64,000 bases of DNA, taken from contig NZ_QKSD01000003.1 in the NCBI RefSeq assembly GCF_003234085.1, positions 186,001-250,000 on the forward strand, written 5' to 3'. This document shows, in pieces, positions 12,410 to 53,833 of the stretch; within the stretch, counting starts at the first letter, position 1, and each line of letters starts with the position of its first letter. The translations under genes and the position numbers were made by a program. Source of the DNA: Curtobacterium sp. MCPF17_052. Its GTDB lineage: Bacteria > Actinomycetota > Actinomycetes > Actinomycetales > Microbacteriaceae. The notes below the pieces were generated by a model. That model did no database searches. It saw only the letters and a program-made list of their open reading frames with translations, and was not told where the DNA came from.

Positions 12410-13876
12410 TCAGACCGACGCCTCGGTTCCCCGCACCTTGCCGACGACGACGTCGACGATCCCGGCGAGCAGCGCGGCCCCGACGAAGCCGAGCGACACC
12501 GCGAGTCCGAGCGGCAGGCCCGTCGCGTAGTCACCGTGCGACGTCGCGAGCGTCGAGTAGAAAACACTGCCGACCGCGGCGATCCCGACCGCCGAACCGA
12601 CACGGGCACCGACCTGGATGAGCCCACCCGCCGAGCCGCCCTGTTCGACCGGCACCTCGGACAGCGTGAGGGTCTGGTTCGGGGAGATGGTCAGGCCGGA
12701 GCCGATGCCCGCGACGAGCAGCGGCAGGACGAGCCACCAGCCCAGGTCGGCCTCGAAGTGGTTCGCGACCACCCAGACCACGACGCCGAGGCCGATGAGC
12801 ACCAGGATCGTCCCGATGACGATGAGCTGCCGCCCGAACCGGTGCACGACGCGGCCGCCGACGGTGGAGGCGACACCGGACCCGATCGCGAACGGCACCG
12901 TCGACAGACCGGCCGTCAGCGCCGAGTAGTGCAGCCCGGACTGCAGGGCGAGCGTCAGGACGAAGAACAGCGGCGTGAAGCCGGCGAAGTAGACCGTCGC
13001 CAGACCGACACCCAGCGAGAACGACCGTCGGCGGAAGAGTCGCAGGTCGACCACGGGCTCCTTCGTCCGCTGGTAGTGCCGCTCCCACAGGACGAACAGC
13101 ACGCCGAACACGACGGCGACGACGATCAGCCACCACTTCGCGTTGCCCTTCCACACCTGCGACTGCACGAAGGGCAGCAGCAGAGCGACCACCGCCGCGC
13201 CCAGCAGCGCGATGCCGACCGGGTCGAAGTCGTGCTTCCTGCCCCGCTCGGCGCCCGAGGGCGCCGGCAGGTAGCGGAAGGCCAGGAGGATCGTGACGAG
13301 TCCCACGGGCAGGTTCACGAAGAAGACGAACCGCCACCCGTTCTCGGTGCCGAAGGCCGTGATGAGCAGGCCGCCGATCAGCGGACCGATCGCGGTCGCG
13401 ATGCCGACGGTCGCGCCGAAGAGCCCGAACGCGGTGCCACGCTCCTTGCCGCGGAACAGCTGCTGGATCAGCGCGGTGACCTGCGGGGTGAGCAGACCAC
13501 CGGCGAGGCCCTGCACCAGCCGGGCGATCACCAGGACCAGGCCGTTCGGGGCGAAACCGCAGAGCGCGCTGGCGAGCGTGAACAGGCCGACACCGATGAC
13601 GAACATCCGGCGGCGTCCGGTCGCGTCGCCGAGACGCCCGCCGGGGACGAGCAGCAGGCCGAACGACAGGGCGTACCCGGAGAGGATCCACTGCACGGCC
13701 TCCGGGGTCGTGCCCGGCAGCCCGGTCGAGATGGACTGCAGCGCGACGTTGACGATCGACACGTCGAGCAACACGATCCCACCGCCGAGCAGGCAGATGA
13801 CGAGCGCCTTCCAGCGGTTCGGGTCGGGCTGGGGAGCCGCATCGGGCTCGACGGGGGTGCGGTGTTCAGCTGTCAT
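12410..13876 (-). CDS. MFS drug exporter, DHA2 family
   Basis: A 488-residue membrane exporter with the 14-helix DHA2 layout. Helix 1 carries LLDVSIVNVALQSI (antiporter motif D1), and the loop 2-3 motif GGRLGDATGRRR follows. A short hydrophilic N-terminus of about 22 residues precedes helix 1. It is related to, but clearly different from, the exporter gene near 1-2.5 kb. No regulator gene is adjacent. Proton-driven drug efflux is expected from the family; substrate unknown. Confidence 0.88.
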   Translation of the reverse strand: MTAEHRTPVEPDAAPQPDPNRWKALVICLLGGGIVLLDVSIVNVALQSISTGLPGTTPEAVQWILSGYALSFGLLLVPGGRLGDATGRRRMFVIGVGLFTLASALCGFAPNGLVLVIARLVQGLAGGLLTPQVTALIQQLFRGKERGTAFGLFGATVGIATAIGPLIGGLLITAFGTENGWRFVFFVNLPVGLVTILLAFRYLPAPSGAERGRKHDFDPVGIALLGAAVVALLLPFVQSQVWKGNAKWWLIVVAVVFGVLFVLWERHYQRTKEPVVDLRLFRRRSFSLGVGLATVYFAGFTPLFFVLTLALQSGLHYSALTAGLSTVPFAIGSGVASTVGGRVVHRFGRQLIVIGTILVLIGLGVVVWVVANHFEADLGWWLVLPLLVAGIGSGLTISPNQTLTLSEVPVEQGGSAGGLIQVGARVGSAVGIAAVGSVFYSTLATSHGDYATGLPLGLAVSLGFVGAALLAGIVDVVVGKVRGTEASV

Positions 13877-14075
13877 GGCCGCTCCACGCTAGGCTCGCCG
13901 CCCCGGGGAGCCGGGCACGATCCTCCCGTCCCCGCACGGACGTGTGAAGGAACCCACAGGTGCAGCCGCTGTCCCGCGTTCTGGGGGCCGGTGAAGTGGA
14001 TGGTGCCCGTGTCCGCACTTCGGGGGACCAGTAGGTTCAGGGCATCCCGCGCCTCCCCGGACCGAACGGAACCCC

Positions 14076-14624
14076 GTGCGCTCGATCGTCACCGGCACCA
14101 TCGCCGCCGCCACCGGCATCACGTTGCTGCTCGGCGGCGCCGGCAGCTTCGCCCTCTGGAACGCGGACGCGAGCACCCGCTCGTCGACCGTGCACGCGGG
14201 GGACCTCGCCCTGACGGCGAACCCGGACGGCGTCTGGACGGACATCACGAACGGTCGCTCGGACCCGGTCGACATCTCCGCGGTCCGGATGGTTCCGGGG
14301 AACGCGTACCAGTTCCACCAGACGTTCGACGTCACGGCCACCGGCGACGACCTGTCGGCCGACCTGAGCTGGACGCCGCTGGACATCACCGGGGACGCCG
14401 AACTCCGGCAGGCCGTCACCAGTTCACTCGCCGTCACCTCCGACAGCGCGGCGCTCACCCCGGCCGGTCGGACCTCGTGGCTCGTGCGGCCCTCGGCGGG
14501 CGTCTCGGTCCTCGACGTCACCGCCACGATCGGGTTGTCGTCGGACGTCACCACGGGCGAGGACCAGACGATCGACCTCAGCGGCCTGACGTTCACCCTG
14601 ACGCAGAAGCCCATCGAGGACTGA
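14076..14624 (+). CDS. alternate signal-mediated exported protein (SipW-type)
   Basis: A 182-residue exported protein. The N-terminus (TGTIAAATGITLLLGGAG, then SFALWNAD at about residues 24-31) is the alternate signal peptide recognised in proteins processed by SipW-like signal peptidases (the RER_14450-type family). The rest is beta-rich, with the camelysin/TasA-like pattern HAGDLALTANPDGVWTD and regular beta strands. Such proteins usually sit beside a sipW gene and form fibres. Here no SipW or second exported gene is next to it, so it is an orphan. The GTG at 14076 is the start that gives the full signal. Confidence 0.78.
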   Translation: MRSIVTGTIAAATGITLLLGGAGSFALWNADASTRSSTVHAGDLALTANPDGVWTDITNGRSDPVDISAVRMVPGNAYQFHQTFDVTATGDDLSADLSWTPLDITGDAELRQAVTSSLAVTSDSAALTPAGRTSWLVRPSAGVSVLDVTATIGLSSDVTTGEDQTIDLSGLTFTLTQKPIED

Positions 14625-14633
14625 CGGCGACGG

Positions 14634-16100
14634 TCACCACGAGCTCGGGGCGTAGTCCTTCAGGAAGACACCGAACAGGTCCTCGCCCGCCTCGCCGCGC
14701 ACGATCGGGTCGTACACGCGGGCGGCTCCGTCGACCAGGTCGAGCGGGGCGTGGAAGCCCTCCTCCGCCAGCCGGACCTTCGTGGGGTGCGGGCGTTCGT
14801 CGGTGATCCAGCCGGTGTCGACGCTCGTCATGAGGATGCCGTCGGTCTCGAACACCTCCTGCGCGCTCGTCCGCGTGAGCATGTTGACGGCGGCCTTCGC
14901 CATGTTCGTGTGCGGATGCCCCGGCCCCTTGTAGGCACGACCGAACACCCCCTCCATGGCACTCACGTTGACGATGTACGTGCGCCGCGCAGCGCTCGCC
15001 GCCATCGCGGGACGCAGCTTCGAGATGAGGATGAACGGGGCCGTCGTGTTGGCGAGCTGGACCTCGAGCATCTCGAGCGGGTCGACCTCGTCGACGCGCT
15101 GCGTCCAGGAGTTCTCGTCGTGCAGGTCCGGCACGAGCCCACCGGCGTCGATCGCGGTGCCCGCGGCGTGCCGCTCGAGCGAACTCGAGCCCGGCGCCAT
15201 CGCCTGCTCGGTGAGCTCGTCCGCACGGGCTGCGGCGGCGGCGAGGATCGGGTGCGCCGTGACCGAGCGTGCGAGGGCCTGGGGGTGCCGGTCGTTCGTG
15301 TGACCGAAGGTGACCAGCTCCGGCAGCGGGCCGTCCGGGAGCGGTGCCAGTTCGGCGTCGACGAGGGGCTGGTACGCCCCGGTCGAGCGGCGCACCGTCT
15401 GCGTGGCGTTGTTGATCAGGATGTCGAGCGGGCCGGCCGCGGCGACGTCCTCGGCGAGCCCGATGACCTGGGCGGGATCACGCAGGTCGATGCCGACCAC
15501 CTTCAGGCGCGACATCCACTCGGCGGAGTCGGGCAGGCTCGCGAACCGGCGCACCGCGTCGCGGGGGAACCGCGTGGTGATGGTGGTGTGCGCCCCGTCG
15601 CGCAGCAGCCGGAGCGCGATGTACATGCCGATCTTCGCGCGTCCGCCGGTGAGCAGCGCCCGCTTGCCGGTCAGGTCGGTCCGGGCGTCGCGCTTGGCGT
15701 GGCTCATCGCAGCGCAGCGGGGGCACAGCTGGTGGTAGAACGCGTCGACCAGCGTGTAGTGCTGCTTGCAGATGTAGCAGGGGCGGGACTTCAGCAGGGT
15801 GCCGGCGGTGGACGACCCGGACGAGGTGCTGATCGGGATGCCGCGGGTCTCGTCGTCGATGCGGTCGGACGCACCGGTCGCGGTGGCGGCGATGACGCGA
15901 CGATCCGCGTCGGCGACGACGGCCCGCTTCTCGAGACGGTGGGCGCGCTTCACGGCCTTGAACATCTTCGCCGTCGCCTGACGCACGCGGACGAAGTCAG
16001 CGTGCGTCTCGTCGATGTCGGTGAGCTGCTCGAGGACCCGGAGCGTGACGCTCAGGTCCGCCGGGTCGATGCCGCTGGGTTCGAGACGCTCGGAGATCAC
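14634..16100 (-). CDS. SDR-family oxidoreductase with central zinc ribbon
   Basis: A 488-residue protein with three parts: a helical N-terminus (1-105), a CxxC...CxxC zinc ribbon (CYICKQHY to LCPRC, about 107-128), and a Rossmann short-chain dehydrogenase domain starting at the nucleotide motif LLTGGRAKIG. The SDR catalytic Ser is present in NVSAMEG. However, the position of the catalytic Tyr in YxxxK is occupied by Thr (HTNMAKAAV). The enzyme may work differently from classical SDRs or have another role. The gene is the second of a possible pair with the MOSC gene 37 bases upstream. Substrate unknown. Confidence 0.78.
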   Translation of the reverse strand: MISERLEPSGIDPADLSVTLRVLEQLTDIDETHADFVRVRQATAKMFKAVKRAHRLEKRAVVADADRRVIAATATGASDRIDDETRGIPISTSSGSSTAGTLLKSRPCYICKQHYTLVDAFYHQLCPRCAAMSHAKRDARTDLTGKRALLTGGRAKIGMYIALRLLRDGAHTTITTRFPRDAVRRFASLPDSAEWMSRLKVVGIDLRDPAQVIGLAEDVAAAGPLDILINNATQTVRRSTGAYQPLVDAELAPLPDGPLPELVTFGHTNDRHPQALARSVTAHPILAAAAARADELTEQAMAPGSSSLERHAAGTAIDAGGLVPDLHDENSWTQRVDEVDPLEMLEVQLANTTAPFILISKLRPAMAASAARRTYIVNVSAMEGVFGRAYKGPGHPHTNMAKAAVNMLTRTSAQEVFETDGILMTSVDTGWITDERPHPTKVRLAEEGFHAPLDLVDGAARVYDPIVRGEAGEDLFGVFLKDYAPSSW

Positions 16101-16137
16101 ACGGGATTCTACGGCGGACCGGGCACCGCTGCCGTCG

Positions 16138-16698
16138 TCACACCGGACTGAGCGGCTGGAGGTCGCCCTCGGGCAGCTCGACCCGCACCCCGTCGCCCGG
16201 CCGGACGACTCCCCCGGTCACGACGACGCTCATCACTCCACCCCTGCGCGAGACGGACCCGTCCTCGGCCCGGCCGAGCACCTGGCGGAGCAGCCCCGGC
16301 TCGAACCCGTTGATCTGCTGGCACGGGTTCCGGAGGCCCGTGACCCGCACGCACGCGTCGTCGCCCAGGTGGAGCAGCGCTCCGGTGGGCAGCCCGAGCA
16401 GGTCGACCCCGCGGGTGGTGACGTTCTCGCCGAGTTGACCGGGCTCGACGACGTAGCCCGACGCGTCGAGCTCGTCGAACAGCTCGGCGTGGATCAGGTG
16501 CACCTGGCGCAGGTTCGGTTGCGAGGGGTCCCGAGCGACGCGGGACCGGTGCTGCACGGTCGTCCCGGCGTGTGCATCGCCCTCGATGCCCCACCCCTCG
16601 ACGAGCGTCACCTCGTCCACGACGGGCTTGCTGAACCGGTGGTCGTGGTCGCGGCTGACGGCCACGACCTCTGATCGGCCTGTTCCCTCGTTCCCCAT
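16138..16698 (-). CDS. MOSC domain protein
   Basis: A 186-residue protein consisting of a MOSC (molybdenum cofactor sulfurase C-terminal) beta-barrel domain. The typical opening VVDEVTLVEGWGIEGDAHAG and the family cysteine in TGLRNPCQQIN are present. Stand-alone MOSC proteins are thought to bind molybdopterin or carry sulfur to molybdenum enzymes, or help detoxify N-hydroxylated compounds (YiiM type). The ATG at 16698 gives a normal-length protein. It is followed after 37 bases by the zinc-ribbon SDR gene on the same strand. Confidence 0.84.
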   Translation of the reverse strand: MGNEGTGRSEVVAVSRDHDHRFSKPVVDEVTLVEGWGIEGDAHAGTTVQHRSRVARDPSQPNLRQVHLIHAELFDELDASGYVVEPGQLGENVTTRGVDLLGLPTGALLHLGDDACVRVTGLRNPCQQINGFEPGLLRQVLGRAEDGSVSRRGGVMSVVVTGGVVRPGDGVRVELPEGDLQPLSPV

Positions 16699-37837: not shown

Positions 37838-38275
37838 TCAGTCCGACGACGAACGGACGAAGAGGTAGTCGGGACGTGGTACATCGAGTGATCCGCTGTA
37901 GAAACCGAGTGCTCCGTTGGTCGGGTAGCCCTGGCGCACGAAGTGGTCATCGAAGTAGAACCGGATGCCGGTCGAGTCACCGTCGGCCACCTTCCATCGT
38001 CCGGAGAAGCTCGCCGAGTCCTCGCCCTTCGCACAACCCGGAGGGCTCGTCGCGGCGTTGCCGGTTCGGCACGCGAGGTCGATCGGGATGTTGCGCGCTG
38101 TGTACGTCCGGTCCGCCGACACGGTGAACTCCGTCGCTCGGTCGCCGTCCGCACCCTCGAGCACCCAGGTGCCGGTGTAGTCCTCCGGCTCGGGCTGTGC
38201 CGTGACGGCGCAACCGGTCAACAACAGCGTCAGCACCGCGATCGACGTCGCGATGCCCGCCGAGTGTCTCGTCAC
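37838..38275 (-). CDS. lipoprotein, candidate immunity protein of the RHS toxin
   Basis: A 145-residue lipoprotein with lipobox LLLTGC and a small beta-rich domain (YTGTWVLEGADGDRATEFTV; SFSGRWKVADGDSTGIRFYF), resembling lipocalin-like or META-type folds. The GTG at 38275 overlaps the RHS stop (GTGA), so the two genes are translationally coupled; a GTG at 38296 inside the RHS end is the alternative. Position directly behind a polymorphic toxin gene is the classical place of an immunity gene. Its specific target, the RHS tip, is inferred. Confidence 0.72.
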   Translation of the reverse strand: MTRHSAGIATSIAVLTLLLTGCAVTAQPEPEDYTGTWVLEGADGDRATEFTVSADRTYTARNIPIDLACRTGNAATSPPGCAKGEDSASFSGRWKVADGDSTGIRFYFDDHFVRQGYPTNGALGFYSGSLDVPRPDYLFVRSSSD

Positions 38276-41200
38276 CACTTCACCTTCTCCTTCCACGTGA
38301 ACCGCTCTGTCACCCGCGAGAATGGACCGTGGTCTCCAGCGGCTCGGTTCAACGCGTCGTAGTCGAGCCCGGGGATCCGCAGGGCCGATCCGAGCGTGGT
38401 CTCGTTCGTCGCCGTGTACTCGACCACGGCGGTTCCGTCGTCGCCCTTCGACACGACCCTCGCATCCACGTCGTACGTCCCGAGGGCAAGGAGAGTTCGG
38501 TCCCGTTCGGACGCCACCGGCCAGGTGACGACTGTGCGGATGTCTCGCAGGAGGTTCTGGTTCGTCAACGACGCGGGTCCCGCCTGGTAGCCGTACCCGG
38601 TCGCGACGCCTGTCTCCTTCAAGTCGTCGAGGATGTCCCTGCGCTGGTCACCCGGCAGCTCGTTCTTCACGACCTGCGTCATCTTGCTGTCCGATCCGTA
38701 GAGCAATGTCCGGGGTGACGTACCAGTCGCCCACCCGAACAGCATCTCGCCCTGCCCACTCGTCAGGACGGTCCCGGCGTAGAAGTCCGCCGCCATGCCG
38801 ACGGGGATGCCGACCATCGGGAGCGGACTGAGCGCGCCGAGGACGACGCCGGGACCTGGCCTGCGTGGGTCGAGGAGTGACATGCCGAGCAGCCATGACA
38901 ATGCGTGTGAGGCGTGCAGGTCCCCGTCCATGGAGAAGGCGCCGTTGTTCGACCAGTGGTACGAGATCCCGAGCAAGCCCTGCCGGCCAGCTCCGTACGC
39001 CGCGAGTTCAGCGTCCGTGATCGGTCGGAGTCCGGACGGGTCGGTCTGGTTGACCGGATCGTTACCAGCGAAGGCGTACGGGTTGTCGGCCCAGGCCGCA
39101 CCTGCCACCGGGGGCAGGGGATCTGGGGACAGGAACGCCCGTGCCGACGGGTCGTACGCTCGTGCTCCGCTCAGTTCGAGCCCAGCGACCATGACGGTGC
39201 CGGTCGGGCTGACCCCGATGCCGTCTGGGAGGCTCGGTGACGTCGCGACGTCGGCCGAGGACCACGGGTCTTGCATCTGCGCAGAGCGCGCCTGGCGCCA
39301 GCCTGAAGTCGCCCAGATCCCGTCGACGCCGAGCATCCCCGGCGCGGAGACGATCGGAACCTCACCGATCGACAGCAGGGTGGGCACGGGCGCCGTCGGG
39401 TCCCAGCAGAACGTCGTTCCGTCGACCTCGGCGAGTTCACCGAGAGCGTTCACCCATAGGTCGAAGCGCTTCACGCCTGCCCCGTCTTCACGCACGACGG
39501 CGCGGAGCTGACCGAGCTCGTCCCACTCGTACGTCGTGGTGCCGTCGTCGGTTGCGGCGAGGACACGCCTGCCCGAGCCGTCGTACTCGAATCGGACGAC
39601 CGCGGTCCCATCGCCACGACGTTCGGCCTGCAGGAGCGCTCCGGCAGGATCGTGCAGGTACGAGGTGTCCCCGGACGCGCTTCGCTCCTCGATCATCCGG
39701 CCGGACCGGTCGTAGGTCCAGGTCGACGCAGTCGTCCCGGTCGCGGCCACCAACTGCGACGCCTCGTCGTACTCGTACGTCACGGTCTTGCCGTCTGGAT
39801 CCAGCACGGACGTGACACGCCCTCGGCTGTCGCGCTCGAGCGTGGTCGTCCCCCCGCCTGACGTGTGCCCGACGACGAAGCCATCGCGGTACTGCCACGA
39901 CTGACCTACGGACCCGGCGACGACCTCGGTCAGTCGGCCATCACCGTCGTGTCGGAACGAGGCGTCGGGGAAGTCGGGTCGCCTGATGCCGGTCAGGATG
40001 CCCGCACGACCGCGGTCGTACTCGGTCCTGACTCCGTCTGGCGTGGTCATCGCGCGCTGATTGCCAGCGGCGTCGTACTCCCATCGGGTCGTCGTGCTCC
40101 GCCCGGCACGACTCGTCGTGCGCCGGACCAACTCCTGCCGGGCGCCGTACTCCAGCCGGTGCACGGTCTGCTCACCGTCGGGGTGGGTCATGTCGGTGAT
40201 CGTGACCGATCGGCCGGACTCGTCCCGCGCGACTGCCGCAACGAGTCGGCCGTCCTGACGGACCTCGGACAGCCGCCCAGCTGGGTCGTGGCCCCAGGTG
40301 GTCGTGTGGCCATCGGGATCCCTACGGGCTGTCGGCCGGCCGGCTGCATCCCGCGTCCACGCCATGGCGCGGCTCATCGAGTCGGTCGAGGATGACACGT
40401 CACCGCGCCCGGTCCAGGTGGTCAGCGTGCGCCCGCCGGAGGGGCTGACCACCTGCGTCACCCGCCCGAGGACGTCTCGGTGAAAGGTCGTGGAGTGCCC
40501 GAGCGCGTCGTCGACCGCGACCGCCTGACCGGCAACGTCCCGGGTGATCGTCCGTCGACCGTTGGATGGGTCGTCGACAGTGACCAGACGTCCGGCAGGA
40601 TCGTGACCGTACCGCGTCGTCCCGATGCCGGGCACTCGTTCCGCAACCAGCCGTGAACAGGCGTCGTACTCGAACGTCGTGACGGCTCCTGAGGGCTCAA
40701 TGCGTTCCACGATCCGCGAGTCCGCATCGTATCCGAGCATCGTCCGGCCACCATCTGAGTCGGTCCACGCCAAGAGCCGACCACAGACGTCGTACTCGAT
40801 GGTCGCACGCTCACCGAGCGGCGAGGTCCCGGCGACGACGCGGCCCGCGAGGTCGAAGTCCAAGAACGGTACTGACGCAGGACGGTCTGGCTGCTCGACG
40901 ACGGAACGGACACCGGTGGGATCGATCCGGGCCGTGGGGCGCGCAACGGCGTCGTACTCCCGGAGCCATCGCCCACCTTCCGGGTCCGTCACCTCGCGTA
41001 GTCGCGAGAGCCCATCGTGGAGCATCGTCCAGCGGGTACCGTCTGGCTGGAGGAGTTCGTGCAGGTTACCCAGACGGTCGTACCGGATGTCGCTCGCCCG
41101 TCCGAGCGGATCCGTGGCGCGCGTGAGGCTTCCACTCGCTCCGTACTCGAAGGTCGTCTGCCCACCAACCGGATCGACGACCGAGGTGACACGACCACCA

Positions 41201-43452
41201 GCGTCGCGTTCAAGCTCCCACACGGAACCGTCCGGGGCCTCACATGAGGTCACGCGGCCGGCGGGGTCACGCTCGAAGCGCGTTCGGTGTCCCATGGGTG
41301 TGGTGGTCGTGACGACGTGACCAGCGTCGTCCCGCGTGTACCGAGTCGTCGCGCCCAGCGCGTCCCGGACGGCAACGAGATCACCCGAACGGTCGTACTC
41401 GTACGTCAGCACGACACCTGCCGGGTCCTCGACGCGGACGAGCAGGTCGTCCACCCATGCCAACGTGAAGCGGGCACCCCGTTCGTCGACGACGAGCGAG
41501 GGCGACGTCGCAGAAGAGTCGGCGTACTCGAACGAAACCGTTCGCCCGTGGCGCTCGACGCGGTGCACGCGGTCGTGATCGTCGTGGGCCACGAGCGTGT
41601 CGGTCCCGTCCGCGGCCAGGGTCCGAGTGAGGCGTCCACGGTCGTCGTACTTGTGGACCGTGACTGACCCGTCACGCGCGGTCGAGGCCACCAGGTTCCC
41701 GTGCTCGTCGTGGCTCAACGATTGTCGTCGACCATCTGAGTCGGTGATCGAGACCACACGACCGTGCCGATCGGATGTCCATGTGTTCGACTGTGTGCCG
41801 TCCTCGTCGGCGACCGATGTGACCCGTCCGGGAAGGTACGCGAACCGGATCGTGCGCTCCTGCGGAGTCGTCTGCAGGACCACCCGACCGTGCTGGTCGT
41901 AGGTGTTCGCACACTCGACGACGCCGTCCGCAGCGGTCACCCGCTCGATCCGACCGTCGACGTCCCACGAGTACGTCCGTGTTCCACCGGGACCCGTCAC
42001 CGTTCTGAGTGCACCGTCGTCGGCGTACTCGTACGTGACCGTGCGGCCGTCGGAAGAGCGCGCCGAACGGACCAGCCCGTCGAGGTGCAGGAGGTCGATG
42101 AACCGTCCGCGTCGGTGCTGGAGCCGCACGAGCCTCTCGTCGCCGTCCCGCACGGCCCTGGTGGTCGCCGCGGTCCCGGTACCGGTCGCTATCCACAGCC
42201 CGCTGGTCGTGAACGACCACCAGGAGCCGGCATTGTCGCGGACGACGAGGACCACCCCACGGTCGGCCGTCGAACCCGCCGAAGGATCGGGTTCTGGTGC
42301 CAGCCACAGGTTCTCTCCGACGGCACGGACCGCTGTGTCGCCCCGGGTCGGGAACGTGCTCCGTCGTCCGTCGTCGTGTACCAACTCGACGTGGTCGGCG
42401 AGGACTTCGAGGCGCTGGTCGAGGACGGAGGACCATCCGCGGCCGAAGGGCCCACCGACGACGTCGAACGAGTTGTACATCCGCGTGAGCTCGAAGCCCT
42501 CAGCGCCTCCGGCGAAGGAGAGGTCACGCTCCAGCTCGACGAAGTTGCCGGTCGCCGTGTTCACGGGGTCGGCTGCGAAGCCACTGGTGGGGACCGCGCC
42601 GAGCAACGAGGGCGTGCCGAAGTCGAGGTCGGTCCTCGTCCTGCCCACCCCTGCCGCCAGGAGCGCGGCCAGGAGCGAACTGTCGTTCAGCGAGACGACA
42701 TCGCCGCTCGCCCCGGCTGCCTCGAAGGCGGCTGCGACCGTGTTCGCCCAGTCCACGTCGCCTTCGTTCGCGGCCAACCAGGCCCGGAAGCCCGCGAGGA
42801 GCGGCGACAGGTCGACGCGGCCGAAGTCGCACCTCTGGGCGAAGCCCGCCAGGGCAGCCGCTATCCGCCCCGGCAGCGCCTGCACGCTGCCGTTGAGGGA
42901 GGTGGTTCCGGAGGCGAACGATCGGAGATGGTCCGGTCGCGCAGACGAGACACTGCCCCCGGTACCCGGACCGGCGCCCGGCGGCGGCGTGCTCCTCGTG
43001 CGCGCCGTGTAGCTCGTACTCGGGAAGGCCGGAACGTCGACCCTGCCACTGCTCGGCGGGGGTTCCTCACCGAAGATCTGGTCCCATGTGCTGTCGACGA
43101 TGTCGGTCCGGCGAGCCATCACGCGATCCCGCCAGGCACGGGCCTCGCGACGACGGGTGTTCTCGGCGCGCGCGGCATCGCTCAGCGCACCGATGCCGCT
43201 CGCGACCTCGCCGAGCTTCGTGGTGAGCTCGCGCGCATCCTCCTGGGCGATCTCCGCGTTCGACCGGAACGTCTCTGCGAAACCGCCTGCGAAGTCGGTG
43301 CCGGCCAGCATGACGAGCGCCGCGCGCGACGGAGACTGGAGCTCCACCGTTGTCTTCGCCAGGTCGCACTGCCGTGCGAGGTCGTCGGCCGCGGCGAAGT
43401 CGTACGTCAGGTCCGGTAGCGCGTACGCGGTCAGGTCTGTCGGTCCAGTCAC
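38272..43452 (-). CDS. RHS/YD-repeat polymorphic toxin with type VII-like N-terminus
   Basis: A 1726-residue protein. Residues 1-130 form helices like WXG/ESX substrates, and a related segment (VDWANTVAAAFEAAGASGD, about 230) is shared with the DUF1023 protein. A DUF6531 domain follows (FVELERDLSFAGGAEGFELT). Then come about 1000 residues of YD repeats that build the RHS shell, closed by the core motif YDPSARAFLSPDPL and DPSGL near 1473. The last 249 residues (encoded at about 38272-39021) are a variable tip with a Gly-rich hydrophobic stretch and no family I recognise; this is the likely toxin. GTG start. A lipoprotein gene overlaps its stop. Confidence 0.85.
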   Translation of the reverse strand: MTGPTDLTAYALPDLTYDFAAADDLARQCDLAKTTVELQSPSRAALVMLAGTDFAGGFAETFRSNAEIAQEDARELTTKLGEVASGIGALSDAARAENTRRREARAWRDRVMARRTDIVDSTWDQIFGEEPPPSSGRVDVPAFPSTSYTARTRSTPPPGAGPGTGGSVSSARPDHLRSFASGTTSLNGSVQALPGRIAAALAGFAQRCDFGRVDLSPLLAGFRAWLAANEGDVDWANTVAAAFEAAGASGDVVSLNDSSLLAALLAAGVGRTRTDLDFGTPSLLGAVPTSGFAADPVNTATGNFVELERDLSFAGGAEGFELTRMYNSFDVVGGPFGRGWSSVLDQRLEVLADHVELVHDDGRRSTFPTRGDTAVRAVGENLWLAPEPDPSAGSTADRGVVLVVRDNAGSWWSFTTSGLWIATGTGTAATTRAVRDGDERLVRLQHRRGRFIDLLHLDGLVRSARSSDGRTVTYEYADDGALRTVTGPGGTRTYSWDVDGRIERVTAADGVVECANTYDQHGRVVLQTTPQERTIRFAYLPGRVTSVADEDGTQSNTWTSDRHGRVVSITDSDGRRQSLSHDEHGNLVASTARDGSVTVHKYDDRGRLTRTLAADGTDTLVAHDDHDRVHRVERHGRTVSFEYADSSATSPSLVVDERGARFTLAWVDDLLVRVEDPAGVVLTYEYDRSGDLVAVRDALGATTRYTRDDAGHVVTTTTPMGHRTRFERDPAGRVTSCEAPDGSVWELERDAGGRVTSVVDPVGGQTTFEYGASGSLTRATDPLGRASDIRYDRLGNLHELLQPDGTRWTMLHDGLSRLREVTDPEGGRWLREYDAVARPTARIDPTGVRSVVEQPDRPASVPFLDFDLAGRVVAGTSPLGERATIEYDVCGRLLAWTDSDGGRTMLGYDADSRIVERIEPSGAVTTFEYDACSRLVAERVPGIGTTRYGHDPAGRLVTVDDPSNGRRTITRDVAGQAVAVDDALGHSTTFHRDVLGRVTQVVSPSGGRTLTTWTGRGDVSSSTDSMSRAMAWTRDAAGRPTARRDPDGHTTTWGHDPAGRLSEVRQDGRLVAAVARDESGRSVTITDMTHPDGEQTVHRLEYGARQELVRRTTSRAGRSTTTRWEYDAAGNQRAMTTPDGVRTEYDRGRAGILTGIRRPDFPDASFRHDGDGRLTEVVAGSVGQSWQYRDGFVVGHTSGGGTTTLERDSRGRVTSVLDPDGKTVTYEYDEASQLVAATGTTASTWTYDRSGRMIEERSASGDTSYLHDPAGALLQAERRGDGTAVVRFEYDGSGRRVLAATDDGTTTYEWDELGQLRAVVREDGAGVKRFDLWVNALGELAEVDGTTFCWDPTAPVPTLLSIGEVPIVSAPGMLGVDGIWATSGWRQARSAQMQDPWSSADVATSPSLPDGIGVSPTGTVMVAGLELSGARAYDPSARAFLSPDPLPPVAGAAWADNPYAFAGNDPVNQTDPSGLRPITDAELAAYGAGRQGLLGISYHWSNNGAFSMDGDLHASHALSWLLGMSLLDPRRPGPGVVLGALSPLPMVGIPVGMAADFYAGTVLTSGQGEMLFGWATGTSPRTLLYGSDSKMTQVVKNELPGDQRRDILDDLKETGVATGYGYQAGPASLTNQNLLRDIRTVVTWPVASERDRTLLALGTYDVDARVVSKGDDGTAVVEYTATNETTLGSALRIPGLDYDALNRAAGDHGPFSRVTERFTWKEKVKW

Positions 43453-43576
43453 CGTTGTGTCCCCCCATGGAATGCGGTGTTGTATCAGTCGAACCTAACG
43501 CAGGCTTGTCGCCCGTGCCGCTGATCCTCGAGGGAACCGGCCCGATGGACTGGAACACGCAACTGCGGTGCTCGCA

Positions 43577-43857
43577 TCGTGGCGAGTACCGGCTTCATCG
43601 TCGGAACGGTGATGGTCCTCCTCCCGCTCGCCAACGCCCTGCTCGACCGCGGGTGGAACTTCCTGCCGATCGTGTCCATGATGGCGGCAAGCGCCGTGCT
43701 TGCGTCCGCGTCCTCGTTCGCCGCGGTGGCAGCCACGAAGCCGGGCGGCCATCCCTGGGTGCACCAGCTGTGGGTCGTCCCCGTCGCGATCATCGCGATG
43801 GTCCCCGGCGCCGTGATCGCACTCCTGGTCTACGGGTCGCTCGCATCGGTGGTCTAG
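43577..43857 (+). pseudogene. truncated copy of the membrane protein gene at 36618
   Basis: Reads ASTGFIVGTVMVLLPLANAL and continues NFLPIVSMMAASAVLASASS to a stop, matching residues from about 42 onward of the protein at 36618. The polar N-terminus and start region are missing. The bases after the stop also match those behind the first copy. The two copies enclose the RHS and immunity genes. Confidence 0.7.
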
Positions 43858-43900
43858 CGCAACCACGTGACGGGCGGGTGCCGTCGCGCCCGCGGGATGC

Positions 43901-43927
43901 ACGCCTCCAGACCCGGACTGGAGGCGT
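43901..43927. repeat. inverted repeat ACGCCTCCAG / CTGGAGGCGT
   Basis: Ten-base arms with a seven-base loop, the counterpart of the repeat at 37055 in the duplicated segment. Confidence 0.55.
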
Positions 43928-43964
43928 GGCGGCGGCCCGCCCCGCCGCTCGCGTCGGCGCGGGA

Positions 43965-44516
43965 TCACCTTGGGACAGGGCGACGCTCAGTCCCAGGGAC
44001 CGTCCGCGGTTCCGAGATGCTCTGCACCCAGCGGTGTGATCGGCAGTGCCGCGAGGCTCGCGATCCCCACCTGCAGGAGCGCCGCTCGTGAGGTCCCGAC
44101 GCGTCCGATCGCCCCCATCCCCTCGATGCCGCGCAGAAGTAGGTGCCGAGCGCCTCGGCGTCGGCGTCCGCCTCGACCTCGCCGGCCGCCTGCGCGTCCA
44201 CGATGCAGGCCGTGTAACCCGAACGGATGGTGTCGAACACCCCGGTCACGGTGGCGGCCACCTCGGGGTCCCGAGCCGACAGCGCCACCGCCGCGCAGAG
44301 CAGCAGTGACGGCGGGCCCTGCGCCGCCCCGTGCTCGACCGCAGCGGAGACCAGCTGCGTCCGGATCCGCGCAATCGGGCGGTCGGCGCTCCGCAGGACG
44401 GACTGCACGACCTCGACGACGTCGGCGGTGTCGCTGAGGAACGCGCATGAAGAGTTCCTTGTTGACGCCGAACGTGTTGTACAGGCTCTGCCGACCGAGC
44501 CCCGTCGCCGTCGCCG
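43965..44516 (-). pseudogene. TetR-family regulator, frameshifted and truncated
   Basis: Pieces of a TetR regulator appear in different frames of the minus strand: TGLGRQSLYNTFGVNKELFM (end of the HTH), then RPIARIRTQLVSAAVEHGAA with DPEVAATVTGVFDTIRSGYT, then IEGMGAIGRVGTSRAALLQV. At least two frameshifts separate them, and the first helices of the HTH are missing where an SDR fragment on the other strand begins. The gene is dead. Confidence 0.72.
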
Positions 44517-44521
44517 TCAGC

Positions 44522-44629
44522 GACGGCCTGGAGGAGGTCGCTGCAACGGTGCTCTTCCTCCTGGCCGAGCAAAGCTCTGGAATGACCGGGAGGCAACACT
44601 TCGTCGACGGCAGCAGCAATACCACCTGA
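44522..44629 (+). pseudogene. C-terminal remnant of a short-chain dehydrogenase
   Basis: The plus-strand frame reads DGLEEVAATVLFLLAEQSSG then MTGRQHFVDGSSNTT and a stop. This is the usual C-terminus of an SDR (substrate loop and the final strand xSGMTGxxxxVDGG). The rest of the gene is absent; the sequence before it belongs to the TetR remnant on the other strand. Confidence 0.6.
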
Positions 44630-46053
44630 TTTACCGGCCTGACTGGTCTCGCCCTCCTGCCTATCGTGGTCGGCGCTCCGGCGGTCGGCTGGGTTGAAGA
44701 GCGACGTGACCAGTCCACCGGAGCTCGTCGCCTTCGATGCCCTACCGCAGTTCCTCCCGCTACCGGCGCCTGCGGACGCCGCTAGCGCGGCCCCCTGAGG
44801 ACGAACACGCCCGGCCCGTCAGCGCTTCTCCCGGCACGGGATGTTCACCGAGCGGGAGGGAGGCGACGCCGCGCTCGACCGTCGTACCTTCAACACCGAG
44901 GCAAAGTTCGTGCGAGCGGGCTTGTGCGCGCACTTGCTCGGAGGACTAGCTCAAGCAGCACCCTGAGGAGTGCCGGCGGTACTCGTCAGGAGTTCGCTTG
45001 CCTCGCGCCGGAAAGAGAACGGCTGTCCGCGGGGACACCTTGAGGGGCCGATCGCGCGTTAATGCGATGAAGGCATCGGTCAGCAGACTTGTCGAGATTC
45101 GGTATCTGCGCCACCTCGTGCGAATGTAGTTTGCGACCGTATGATTCTTCAGCCTCTGACTGCCGCAAACATGGGGCCCATCACTGCCCGTTGGCCCTGA
45201 GACACCCGCGTCTGGCTGTACGCATCGTTCGGGTGCTTGCCCTTCCAGGAGAGGATTATAGGCAGGGCCGAATGGGCGATGCTCCACGTGCTGGACGAGT
45301 TGTCGCCGTTGCTGTCAGGATCGCGGACCGAAGCACATCAGTATCCCCATCGTGGTCAAAGACGAGGTCGTTGACACGTACCGAACCTTGGTCTGGCATG
45401 ACCGCGAGCATCTTCTGGTCAGCGGCACGAGCGGACCACCGAAACGAACGATGCCGGAGTTGGTTGAGTCCGGTGAGCACCACGAGAACATCGTCCAACG
45501 TGAAACCGGCGAGGTCACGCGCTGTTCAGGCATCTGTGATGTGGACGCCCGCCCACCCGCTTCCAGATCTACAGCCGATCTGTTGAAGTATCGCGGAGTC
45601 ACGTTCGATGGCTCGCACCGACAACTCGAATGCGTCTGCGAGTCGACGCGGGATGTCAGACGTGGCAGACGGCTCGTATCTGCTCCACAAGTATGTAGCG
45701 CCAATCGATCGGGCCAACCACCCGCCATTCGGCACCTCGCGGCTCAACGCGCCGAACGAAGGGCTGCGTGGGTCGCAGCAGTACGACCGTCCCAACGCAG
45801 CCTTCTCAAGCGAGCTTGACCGTCTCGTGGTACACGGCGCCCTGCCACAACTTAAGCGATGACCAACGCCATCGGCGGCGAGCGTTTAGGGCAGCTCGAC
45901 AAAAGATGCCTCCTGGATCTGGCGTCGCAGGCACGGCGTCTATAAACTGCAACATCCAACAACGAAGCTTTCGCACCTGCTCCTTGCTTCACCCGGCGCC
46001 GCCCAGTAGCGTAATCAGCACACCCGAGGTGCCGATCCGGCTAGGAAGCGAAA
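44630..46053. other. left part of low-GC island, no certain gene
   Basis: A stretch of 1.4 kb with many stops in all frames and a base composition falling steadily below that of the flanks. I see no intact gene. The only frame that looks protein-like is on the minus strand at 45256-45795 and is interrupted. This is probably the worn edge of the island carrying the KptA fusion gene. Confidence 0.5.
45256..45795 (-). pseudogene. unrecognised reading frame interrupted by one TGA
   Basis: One minus-strand frame stays open over 540 bases except for a single TGA. Before the stop it reads SDIPRRLADAFELSVRAIER then DSAILQQIGC. After it, ARDLAGFTLDDVLVVLTGL and RVNDLVFDHDGDTDVLRSAI. Both halves look like ordinary protein, and I recognise no family. 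It could be a dead gene or two short ones; confidence is low. Confidence 0.35.
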
Positions 46054-49038
46054 TTGAACGAGCCAAAGATGCCGAGCAAGTTCTCCCCGTCCGATCTGCA
46101 CGATCTCCACCGGGGCGAAATCAGGCCCGATCGGGAACAAGCGGAGCAGCTACTCGCTTTCTGGCGACAGCTGGGGATCCGACCAACTCTCGTCCCAGCA
46201 GGAGCGACGAGACAGGCTGGTGACGTGACTTCACCGTCGCTGCTCAGGCGGGAAGCGAAGGCAGCGGAGTTGGCAGCCCTTTGGATTGACGTCTTAGCGG
46301 AGCGACACGAGCCAACCTTGGCCGATCTCATATTGATTGAATATTGGTTCTCGGTGGGAGCCGCGTTTCTCCCGCGGCACATGCCAGCGAGAATGTCCTA
46401 CACCAAGACTCTTCTCACCATTCGACAGCGCGTCGCGATAGCCATCCATGACTACGCTAGAGAGGTGAACTGGCGGCGCCCAGTACTCTTTGTCACAGCA
46501 TTAAAGATCGCCCGCGCGTACTTGCGCGATGCAGTCGGACACGAGGAGGCCCTACGCCCCGACCTACGGAAAAATTTCACTGGCCGCCTCGGTGTAGCGA
46601 CAGTGCTAATCTCCCGCTTTGAGAACGTCACCCAAGAAGACGCCAAAGAAGCCATCGGGGCGTTAGAACGATCAATATCGCAGGGCAACACAGACGGTTC
46701 AGCTTTTGCCTACCTACTAGAAGCACACGCAGTTTACCTAGACCTTTGCCCCGATCCACATCTTCTTGAGCATGCACTCGATGTAGCAAGAAAGCGAGCC
46801 TCAACCGACCCGTCCTTCATCTTGGCGCAGATCGACCTTTTATTGCGTAGGGCGACGCACCTTGGCTTCACGTCGCCAGATCCAGGAGTGCTACGCGAGG
46901 CAGGAAATCTCGCTGACGCATGCCGGCCAACTCTCGGCGAAGATAGAGTGCGTCAGGCGATGGCGAAGGCGATCATCAAATATCTTCAGTCGGGTGACGT
47001 CGAGCGCGAGGATCTTATGCACGCTCGGCTTCCCTTCGGCCTACGAGTCGAAGGCGAGCCCAATCAACTACTGGTGCAATCGGCACGTTTTCTTATCGGC
47101 CCACTCCGTCAGCTAGCCAAATCTGGCGAACCGACAGCACGAGGGCTTTTAGCCGACTATCTAGTGCAGGCGACCGAAGCTCTCGAAATCACGGAGATTG
47201 ACGCACTCAAGGAAAGCATTTTACTCCGGGGTGGCGAGCGTTTCTTGGAAGATGAACGAAGCCAGCTATTGAAGCGTCGTGACCAGTTGCGGCTTGCAGC
47301 CCTGACCTCCGATAACTTCCTTCGCGTCAACACTCTAGTAGAACTCGCGGCCCTCATCGACGCTAACCACGCGTCGCCAGCCCCACTTGTTCTCCTAGCC
47401 CGAGACGTTGAGGATTACGGGCCCCAACCGGTGCCGATAGCTCCCGGGACAGGTGCCTTCGTACGAGCTGTCCTGCGCGACATTTCTAAAGGCAACGCGG
47501 ACGCCTTATACGGAAAGGCCGGAGAGGCTGCATTGAACAGTCCCGACCTCTCTGTCCTCAGCCTGGGCGGGCGAAGCGGAGTGACCTCCGTCGCCGACTA
47601 TTACGGGCTGAGTAGCGAGACTTTCGTCTTCAAGAATATGGCGAAAGTCGCAGTTGGGCAGGAGAGGGATCGCGCAGACATCATCGCTCGCCACCTCCGA
47701 AGCACGGCGCAGGCTGACCGGTTCGGGGTCTCGCACCTGTTGGCTACTTACGACCGAGAAGGGAATGGCGAAAAAACCGTAACCGCGGCGCGACCCTACA
47801 TACGGGGCCGGCCGCTATATGCCGCGGTCGAGGCGGCCGATGCAGCACAGCGCCAAGTTCTACTGGGGAATGCCGCAAGTTTCCTCGGCATTATCAATAG
47901 ATGTGAAGAAGGCGAAGCCCTGAATCAGGGCCGTCGCGAAGTAAAAACAAAGGAATTTGGGCGTTGGTTGAAGGCCTGCGGGCTAGTTGACCTTAACGAC
48001 ATATTCGACCGCTGGTGGGACTGTGTGAAGGACGCGGATCTTCTGCGCAGGCGTGACGCCCACCTCCACAATTGGCTCATCACAGAGGAAGCAAAGATAT
48101 ATGCAATTGATCTCGAGGCGCAGGGCTGGAGGCCAGCAGGCTACGAGTTAGCTCAGCTCAGCGACGATCATGCGTTTCTTCCCGCCGGGGACTGGCAGAC
48201 CCGGAGAGCACTTTTCGAGATATGGCGGGCGTCTCGGAATGCCAGTCCTGCGGGAGAGCGCGTGGAGTGGCTTTCGTACCAAGCATCAGTACTAGCAAGA
48301 ATCGTGTGGGGACTGACCGGTACCGCTGATAGCCCCTTTCCCTCAGGCCTGGCAGAGGAACGACTGTCTCTATACATAGAGTCTGTCACAGACAAACGGT
48401 TGAGCAACCTGGGAGGCGAAATACTCAGGGGCTGGCTATCGACGCGTGGTCTTTCACGACTGCCCCTTTCAGACCCGGCTGCAGAAGGCGCTGGCCGCGT
48501 CAGGACGAGCAAAAGCATCGCCTTTCACCTTCGCCACGACGAACTACTGGTCCGAGATGCCGGCGGCTGGGTGCTTCTCGAAGACCTTCAACAACGTCTA
48601 GCACCTAGGCTCCGGGTTGACGTACTAGCGGCTGTAGCAACAGATAAAGATGAGCGTCGGTTTGAGATTCGAGGCGGGAAGATTCGCGCTAAGTACGGCC
48701 ATAGTATCGCCGCCGAACTTGATTACGATCCCCCGAAGGCCGCAGTTCGTCTCTACCATGCCTCCCCATGGGCATCTGCGCACCAAATTATCGACGATGG
48801 AGCGGGTATTCTTCCGATGAATCGGCAATTTGTTCACCTCAGCGCGGATATTGAGGAAGCGGTTGCCAACGGAATTCGCACGGGCCAACCGCTTGTATAC
48901 AGCATCTCGTCGAACTCTGGTGCGGACATTCTTCAGGCTCACGGCAGCACCTACCTCTCAAGAGCGGTTCCAACGAGCGAACTTAGCGTGGTGCCCGTGT
49001 CCTGCTTCTGGGCTCAAGTTCCGCCTTTCAAGCATTGA
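46054..49038 (+). CDS. giant KptA/Tpt1 fusion: unknown N-terminal region plus RNA 2'-phosphotransferase domain
   Basis: A 994-residue protein encoded in DNA of clearly lower GC than the host. Residues 819-994 are a complete KptA/Tpt1 domain: R827-H828 in FHLRHDEL, R878 in KIRAKYGHS, H902 in LYHAS, then FVHLSADIEEAVANGIRTG with R942. These are the four catalytic residues (Arg-His-Arg-Arg) of the enzyme that removes an RNA 2'-phosphate using NAD+, and that can ADP-ribosylate nucleic acid ends. Bacterial KptA is normally about 180 residues. Residues 1-818 are mostly helical, perhaps repeat-like, and I recognise no domain. TTG start at 46054 with AGGAAG five bases before it; ATG at 46069 is the alternative. 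No partner gene is intact nearby. Confidence 0.82.
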   Translation: MNEPKMPSKFSPSDLHDLHRGEIRPDREQAEQLLAFWRQLGIRPTLVPAGATRQAGDVTSPSLLRREAKAAELAALWIDVLAERHEPTLADLILIEYWFSVGAAFLPRHMPARMSYTKTLLTIRQRVAIAIHDYAREVNWRRPVLFVTALKIARAYLRDAVGHEEALRPDLRKNFTGRLGVATVLISRFENVTQEDAKEAIGALERSISQGNTDGSAFAYLLEAHAVYLDLCPDPHLLEHALDVARKRASTDPSFILAQIDLLLRRATHLGFTSPDPGVLREAGNLADACRPTLGEDRVRQAMAKAIIKYLQSGDVEREDLMHARLPFGLRVEGEPNQLLVQSARFLIGPLRQLAKSGEPTARGLLADYLVQATEALEITEIDALKESILLRGGERFLEDERSQLLKRRDQLRLAALTSDNFLRVNTLVELAALIDANHASPAPLVLLARDVEDYGPQPVPIAPGTGAFVRAVLRDISKGNADALYGKAGEAALNSPDLSVLSLGGRSGVTSVADYYGLSSETFVFKNMAKVAVGQERDRADIIARHLRSTAQADRFGVSHLLATYDREGNGEKTVTAARPYIRGRPLYAAVEAADAAQRQVLLGNAASFLGIINRCEEGEALNQGRREVKTKEFGRWLKACGLVDLNDIFDRWWDCVKDADLLRRRDAHLHNWLITEEAKIYAIDLEAQGWRPAGYELAQLSDDHAFLPAGDWQTRRALFEIWRASRNASPAGERVEWLSYQASVLARIVWGLTGTADSPFPSGLAEERLSLYIESVTDKRLSNLGGEILRGWLSTRGLSRLPLSDPAAEGAGRVRTSKSIAFHLRHDELLVRDAGGWVLLEDLQQRLAPRLRVDVLAAVATDKDERRFEIRGGKIRAKYGHSIAAELDYDPPKAAVRLYHASPWASAHQIIDDGAGILPMNRQFVHLSADIEEAVANGIRTGQPLVYSISSNSGADILQAHGSTYLSRAVPTSELSVVPVSCFWAQVPPFKH

Positions 49039-49087
49039 CCAACATGAAGGAGAGCCTTGCGTTACTTACGGCAGTCGCTTCCGACTA

Positions 49088-50207
<1,120 letters not shown>

Positions 50208-50238
50208 GAACGGGCGCCAGCATCGCTGACGCCCGTTC
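50208..50238 (-). terminator. hairpin terminator of the small gene at 50275
   Basis: GAACGGGCGTCAGC / GCTGGCGCCCGTTC arms (one mismatch) followed on the minus strand by CCCCTTT. It lies 37 bases behind the stop of the minus-strand gene. Confidence 0.62.
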
Positions 50239-50274
50239 GGTATTCAATTGAGGCTGTTGCAGCAGCCTTGGTTA

Positions 50275-50451
50275 CTATGCGACCAGGCGACGGAACGCGC
50301 ACTCGCCCTTGCGGTCGATGCACGGCGGGAACGTGTGCCCCACGGCGAAGCGCGTCACGTCTCCGTACTGGTCAGCCCAGTAGCCATCGATTGGCACCCG
50401 CTGGCCCGTCTTCCACGAGTCATCAGGCCCGAGCGGGAAATGAGTGGTCAC
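50275..50451 (-). CDS. small YjzC-like hypothetical protein
   Basis: A 58-residue protein reading TTHFPLGPDDSWKTGQRVPI and then YWADQYGDVTRFAVGHTFPP-CIDRKGECAFRRLV. The pattern (proline-rich start, GQRVPxDGYWxDQYG, TFPPC...GEC) resembles YjzC-like small proteins found widely in bacteria. The two cysteines may bind metal. GTG at 50451 is the start because AGGAGG lies seven bases before it. It has its own terminator and lies between the truncated and the intact nrdF. Confidence 0.65.
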   Translation of the reverse strand: MTTHFPLGPDDSWKTGQRVPIDGYWADQYGDVTRFAVGHTFPPCIDRKGECAFRRLVA

Positions 50452-50539
50452 CAGGTGACCTCCTAACTTCGGGGGGAGAGCCCCGCCTCCTCGGCTCAAG
50501 CGAGCAGAGTCCAATCCGGGTACGCCCGGTGATCAAGAT

Positions 50540-50563
50540 GGGGCCCTCGTCATCGAGGGCCCC
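50540..50563 (-). terminator. nrdF terminator hairpin
   Basis: Perfect arms GGGGCCCTCG and CGAGGGCCCC with a TCAT loop, nine bases behind the nrdF stop. It ends the nrdHIEF operon. Confidence 0.75.
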
Positions 50564-50571
50564 GCACGAAT

Positions 50572-53833
<3,262 letters not shown>

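Follow-up and report, generated by a model that had tools for sequence, protein, structure and literature searches.

A single gene at 46054..49038 on the forward strand of the window, the 64,000-nucleotide stretch of Curtobacterium sp. MCPF17_052 DNA analysed here, encodes a 994-amino-acid protein (from a TTG start, with a later start possible) that joins a TPR-like repeat array, a kinase and a KptA/Tpt1 RNA 2'-phosphotransferase domain, and it is proposed, with a probability of about 0.4, to be a single-polypeptide writer and eraser of RNA 2'-phosphate. The all-helical array is at 46231..47502 (residues about 60-483), the kinase, of predicted APH/choline-kinase fold, at 47503..48408 (about 484-785), and the KptA domain at 48487..48993 (about 812-980), all on the plus strand. 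The kinase domain would use ATP to phosphorylate a ribose 2'-OH in RNA, most likely tRNA, the KptA domain would erase the 2'-phosphate that the kinase writes, and the TPR-like part, probably regulatory or ligand-binding, may bind a signal or the substrate and set the prevailing activity. With the kinase on the same chain as KptA and both active sites kept, a kinase that writes what KptA erases is the simplest model.

Bacterial KptA has no settled substrate. The source of its RNA 2'-phosphate is described as a longstanding conundrum, and a kinase phosphorylating an internal 2'-OH as one possible source of the E. coli KptA substrate, in excerpts of PMC6333775. ArkI later supplied a 2'-OH kinase for archaea and some bacteria, where homologues with tRNA-phosphorylating activity occur too, and in archaea ArkI and KptA share one 2'-phosphate of RNA as their target (PMC9095486, in excerpt). 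Here a kinase of another fold shares a chain with KptA, and both sites have been retained across deep divergence; the fusion points directly, on genetic grounds, to a further kinase of this sort, is a concrete candidate for the origin of the unexplained bacterial 2'-phosphate, and narrows the question to one enzyme assay. If the proposal is true, actinobacteria would have RNA phosphorylation as a mark that can be switched, its writer and eraser sharing a polypeptide. A kinase-KptA fusion was not found in open-licence PMC full text, a prior mention being possible and the 2016 work on RNA repair systems lying outside that coverage, nor is one mentioned in the available portions of PMC9503650, PMC9095486, PMC11833690 and PMC6333775.

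Pfam detects KptA as the sole domain of the window's protein (PF01885, 60.4 bits against a gathering cut-off of 26), and so residues 1-818 had seemed blank. The KptA domain with R827, H828, R878 and R942 that the earlier note had recognised (codons at 48532-48537 for R827-H828, 48685-48687 and 48877-48879, plus strand) is upheld by the Pfam score, by retention of the tetrad in homologues and, through the structure prediction that the note had suggested as a check, by a predicted KptA fold of the C-terminal part. PF01885 matches 46/46 members of the homologue set (E up to 1); R827, H828 and R878 are kept in 58/58 fused KptA domains and R942 in 57, the one exception having Lys, with all four present in each of 19 stand-alone KptA proteins. 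In studied Tpt1 this Arg-His-Arg-Arg tetrad is essential, and binds the 2'-phosphate and adjacent 3'-phosphate of RNA (PMC6333775, in excerpt). The domain shares fold, tetrad and a score above the Pfam cut-off with KptA/Tpt1, but is here the C-terminal domain of a 994-residue protein and lies apart from the 19 stand-alone KptA in the tree. Against the NCBIfam KptA equivalogs it is below all four cut-offs (best NF002013, 97.1 bits versus 231). The annotated names of homologues, where given, are RNA 2'-phosphotransferase, a TPT1/KptA name or hypothetical protein. What may speak against a writer and eraser of RNA 2'-phosphate is that the described HGT motif of the NAD+ pocket reads HAS in the window's KptA; among the 58 fused domains H902 is invariant, the Gly position holds Ala 48 times and Cys and Gly 5 times each, and the third position is Thr in 43, Ser in 13 and Ala in 2.

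Upstream of KptA, a kinase-like motif order is visible by eye in residues 505-705 (FVFK, RRRDAHLHNW, AIDLE). K527 (47632-47634), D668 (48055-48057), N673 (48070-48072) and D686 (48109-48111; all plus strand) are invariant in 53/53 sequences of one alignment and in 65/65 rows of a larger one, and from the motif order are taken to be the kinase Lys, the catalytic Asp and Asn, and the metal-binding Asp. PF01636 matches 5 of the 46 homologue-set members (best 6.4e-10), and the predicted structure of the domain has an APH/choline-kinase-like fold. Since the window's protein (P0001) is without a Pfam kinase match and the kinase profile, run against PDB sequences, hit nothing but one unrelated entry (E 0.36), it is relatives, motif order and predicted fold that carry the assignment. 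On the Pfam matches of relatives and the predicted structure, a helical sensor without known domain was rejected. The earlier statement that about 818 residues hold no recognisable domain therefore falls, as the TPR-like array and a complete kinase, its catalytic residues invariant, lie within them, and the plan of a large helical sensor with an NAD+ effector gives way to what is likely a two-enzyme protein.

Like ArkI with KptA, the archaeal writer and eraser of tRNA Up47, the fusion pairs a kinase with KptA around a proposed reversible RNA 2'-phosphate; ArkI, however, stands alone as an ePK-like protein and has the motifs HGQ and DFE (PMC9095486, in excerpt), whereas the fusion kinase, found mainly in actinobacteria, has an APH/choline-kinase fold by prediction, is joined to KptA and TPR, and carries the catalytic loop R-R-D-A-H-L-x-N (R-D-x4-N) and the metal motif DLE. 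DLE resembles DFE, but the HGQ catalytic-loop motif of ArkI (COG2112) is absent, and by that difference the kinase was rejected as an ArkI relative; ArkI structures 7VNV-7VNX are not among the 50 fold matches listed, and a tie, if there is one, would be distant. Just past the metal-binding D686, R693 and Y697 are both present in 59/59 KptA-linked kinases (58 with a KptA domain plus the fragment P0061), versus 0/6 and 1/6 respectively in KptA-less kinases, a split between the clades that is a possible specificity change, as if the kinase substrate were tied to the KptA link.

The nearest folds among the 50 matches listed are corramycin, aminopropanol, N-acetylhexosamine, choline and methylthioribose kinases and the LxmKY kinase. 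Identity to the APH/choline-kinase-like kinases (PF01636; corramycin phosphotransferase 8agy, 3csv) is 13-14%, with the kinase here being joined to TPR and KptA. In the lexapeptide dehydratase complex (9dk3) the LxmK kinase phosphorylates a peptide and a partner enzyme then removes the phosphate, a peptide substrate and another partner enzyme being the points of difference. That the predicted fold is nearest to small-molecule and peptide kinases, not to ArkI, would tell against an RNA 2'-phosphate writer, and is what sustains the first alternative, unlikely though it seems, of a non-RNA substrate: the kinase would phosphorylate a hydroxyl of a metabolite, peptide or protein, and KptA would process that phosphate with NAD+, by removal or as a stable phospho-ADP-ribose adduct. 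Room for a non-RNA phospho-substrate is left by PMC6333775, in the excerpts of which the tetrad kept here is nevertheless described as contacting the 2'- and adjacent 3'-phosphate of RNA. Also at odds with a non-RNA substrate, no neighbour gene or cluster is common to more than two of 18 fusion loci, which rules out a conserved partner gene.

Named carriers of the fusion in the genome collection include Nocardioides, Haloactinopolyspora, Promicromonospora, Actinoplanes, Streptomyces, Micromonospora, Nocardiopsis, Cryobacterium, Rathayibacter, Leifsonia and Demequina, together with MAGs labelled Acidimicrobiaceae and Thermobaculum. The kinase is in 1 of the 66 genus genomes searched, that of the window itself, in 4/249 of the family sample (one weak) and 9/394 of the class sample (three weak), and with up to 33, 8 and 5 candidates scored per genome, respectively, absence is not proof. 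In the class sample the kinase match lies in an open frame of 1018 aa in G528 and of 1070 aa in G580; two of the weak class-level matches look like other kinases (G715, and G524, by eye an ordinary 365-aa phosphotransferase-like ORF). In the order sample 15/297 match the full profile, 12 of the 15 through the KptA end alone. One copy (G153) is interrupted by stops in the N-terminal part and another (L019) is split into two ORFs, as expected of a dispensable gene. GC3 of the window's fusion gene is 0.589, versus 0.93 for nrdE and nrdF, and its foreign base composition, read earlier from the DNA, is borne out. Carriage as phage or plasmid cargo was discarded for want of a near-full-length match in viral, plasmid and phage records: 16 stretches of viral contigs matched a pattern and none encodes a relative, while 29 plasmid and 37 phage records match, none over 80% of the query. 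The 20 plasmid and 20 phage matches listed are all in the KptA end, the one starting at residue 724 being a Curtobacterium plasmid with a separate 193-aa KptA gene. Given its patchiness the fusion gene appears to be a horizontally moving accessory trait, perhaps for stress or phage response.

A strong defence gene adjoins the fusion gene in 2/17 neighbourhoods. In Promicromonospora (L005) it is AbiU (1.9e-113), upstream on the same strand with a 64-aa ORF alone between; in L018 a type IIG restriction-methylation gene (12898-16332; 2e-264) starts 32 bases downstream, again on the same strand. In two further loci, L006 and L019, a neighbour 5-6 kb off carries a C5-methylase motif, the 723-aa neighbour in L006 yielding no Pfam domain other than an ATPase; L019 also has a weak Ppl match (9.9e-13) in a single-protein scan. 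For the remaining loci no strong defence gene was located, 29/106 neighbours being scanned singly; in the pooled 106, REase_II, MTase_II and DrmMII models match. The neighbour set was hand-picked from a longer table, small ORFs and some others being left out, and the controls are 108 of 183 control ORFs, from 12 of 18 control regions, both sets coming from a crude ORF caller. At E up to 1e-75, PADLOC gives six families in the neighbours (restriction, methylase, AbiU) versus five in the controls (DpdF and PsyrT, taken for ordinary helicases), counted as families and not proteins; at 1e-10 it gives 72 versus 60, hence no clear excess. There is no clean enrichment for defence genes in the surroundings, and the fusion protein itself has no match to any PADLOC family at E up to 10. 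Of the defence role raised in the earlier note, the adjoining defence genes and the two C5-methylase motifs leave something suggestive, while the lack of a PADLOC model and the nearly as many strong families among controls weigh against it. On other neighbours, L003 has an integrase, a TrwC relaxase domain occurs in 2/106 (probably of L015 and L018, by size and helicase matches), and L005:4406-9440, upstream of the fusion gene, spans a gene with weak HerA/mad8 matches and then AbiU.

Adjoining AbiU and restriction genes, and a patchy, foreign-looking gene, are also what a kinase/KptA cycle run by both enzymes of one chain could draw on, and such a cycle needs the two together as they are here. 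It is nonetheless improbable, in that KptA is not known to act as a fast NADase, no gene able to process a cyclic product is common to the neighbourhoods, and short forms without the TPR array are listed. These short forms, four in number and of 536-569 aa, consist of kinase and KptA; one (P0057) is on a 1.06 Mb contig, and contigs of 1.7-3.3 kb carry the remaining three, which may be cut.

To return to the proposed writer and eraser of RNA 2'-phosphate, homologues with as little as 25% identity still have both active sites. In a tree of 64 kinase domains, the KptA-bearing kinases are on one side of a branch and six KptA-less ones on the other; in a tree of 77 KptA domains, the 58 fused are split from the 19 stand-alone, with support of 100/100 in each case. 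The two trees have 34/55 splits in common among 58 shared rows, and the strongly supported splits in conflict are four, three of them involving P0038, P0039 and P0043; the two domains have therefore mostly travelled together, and one fusion event, which both trees fit, would be the simplest account. Far from always carrying only one half, homologues thus repeat the fusion, though six sister kinases are without KptA. These six are P0060 (Actinophytocola) and P0064-P0068. P0064 is a protein of genome G407 (100% identity), in which a search for KptA found none, and the Actinophytocola genome has one separate KptA outside the stretch with the kinase (locus L020). The kinase is accordingly a module of its own and, as would tell against the proposal, does not need a KptA eraser everywhere. 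A TPR-kinase protein without KptA is encoded at L105:7978-11730 (minus strand) in a Frankiaceae MAG, and there are four further KptA-less TPR-kinase proteins, none with a precomputed Pfam domain.

A kinase that is its own module would also suit a single-chain toxin-antitoxin, in which it would be a toxic blocker of translation (by tRNA or protein modification), KptA the built-in antidote and TPR the part that tips the balance; a kinase-kinase-phosphatase module in phage defence has been published (PMC11341870, in excerpt). The KptA-less sisters persist in their hosts, leaving this a very improbable reading. Slimmest of all is the chance of RNA-end healing, in which kinase and KptA would each work on a different end of cut RNA ahead of a ligase from elsewhere, as known polynucleotide 5'-kinases have a fold other than the fusion kinase's and no gene, hence no ligase or nuclease, is common to more than two of the 18 neighbourhoods. 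In its favour, excerpts of PMC9503650 assign KptA to RNA repair alongside 2H domains and RNA ligases.

The truncated nrdF reported beside the gene is a partial copy (Pfam PF00268; the 3' part and little beyond) at 49148..49871 on the minus strand, outside the proposed function. Its 49185-49871 has 93.6% DNA identity to 50565-51250 of the intact nrdF, and it is 92-95% identical to six same-genus nrdF loci, in alignments that begin between 49148 and 49206; the intact nrdF protein has 98% identity to that of a same-genus relative (G317). The partial copy is, on this sequence evidence, a probable mark of insertion beside nrdF, and the region 49148-50572 points to a donor's nrdF end that may have arrived with the island. 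The six same-genus loci, of 13-14 kb, yielded no fusion gene; past nrdF their sequence is unlike the window's and unlike each other's, which suggests a variable site at the nrdF flank. Rfam gave nothing at gathering scores in 43000-52000. Short overlapping ORFs at 44946-45795 are worn remnants, four of which were scanned with Pfam and gave no match. Farther out, 38272-43452 (minus strand) encodes a 1726-aa protein with RHS repeats (PF05593). In a relative (L089) a portion of the C-terminal end of this protein lies beside nrdF together with the gene that follows it, so RHS genes are also among those at the nrdF flank.
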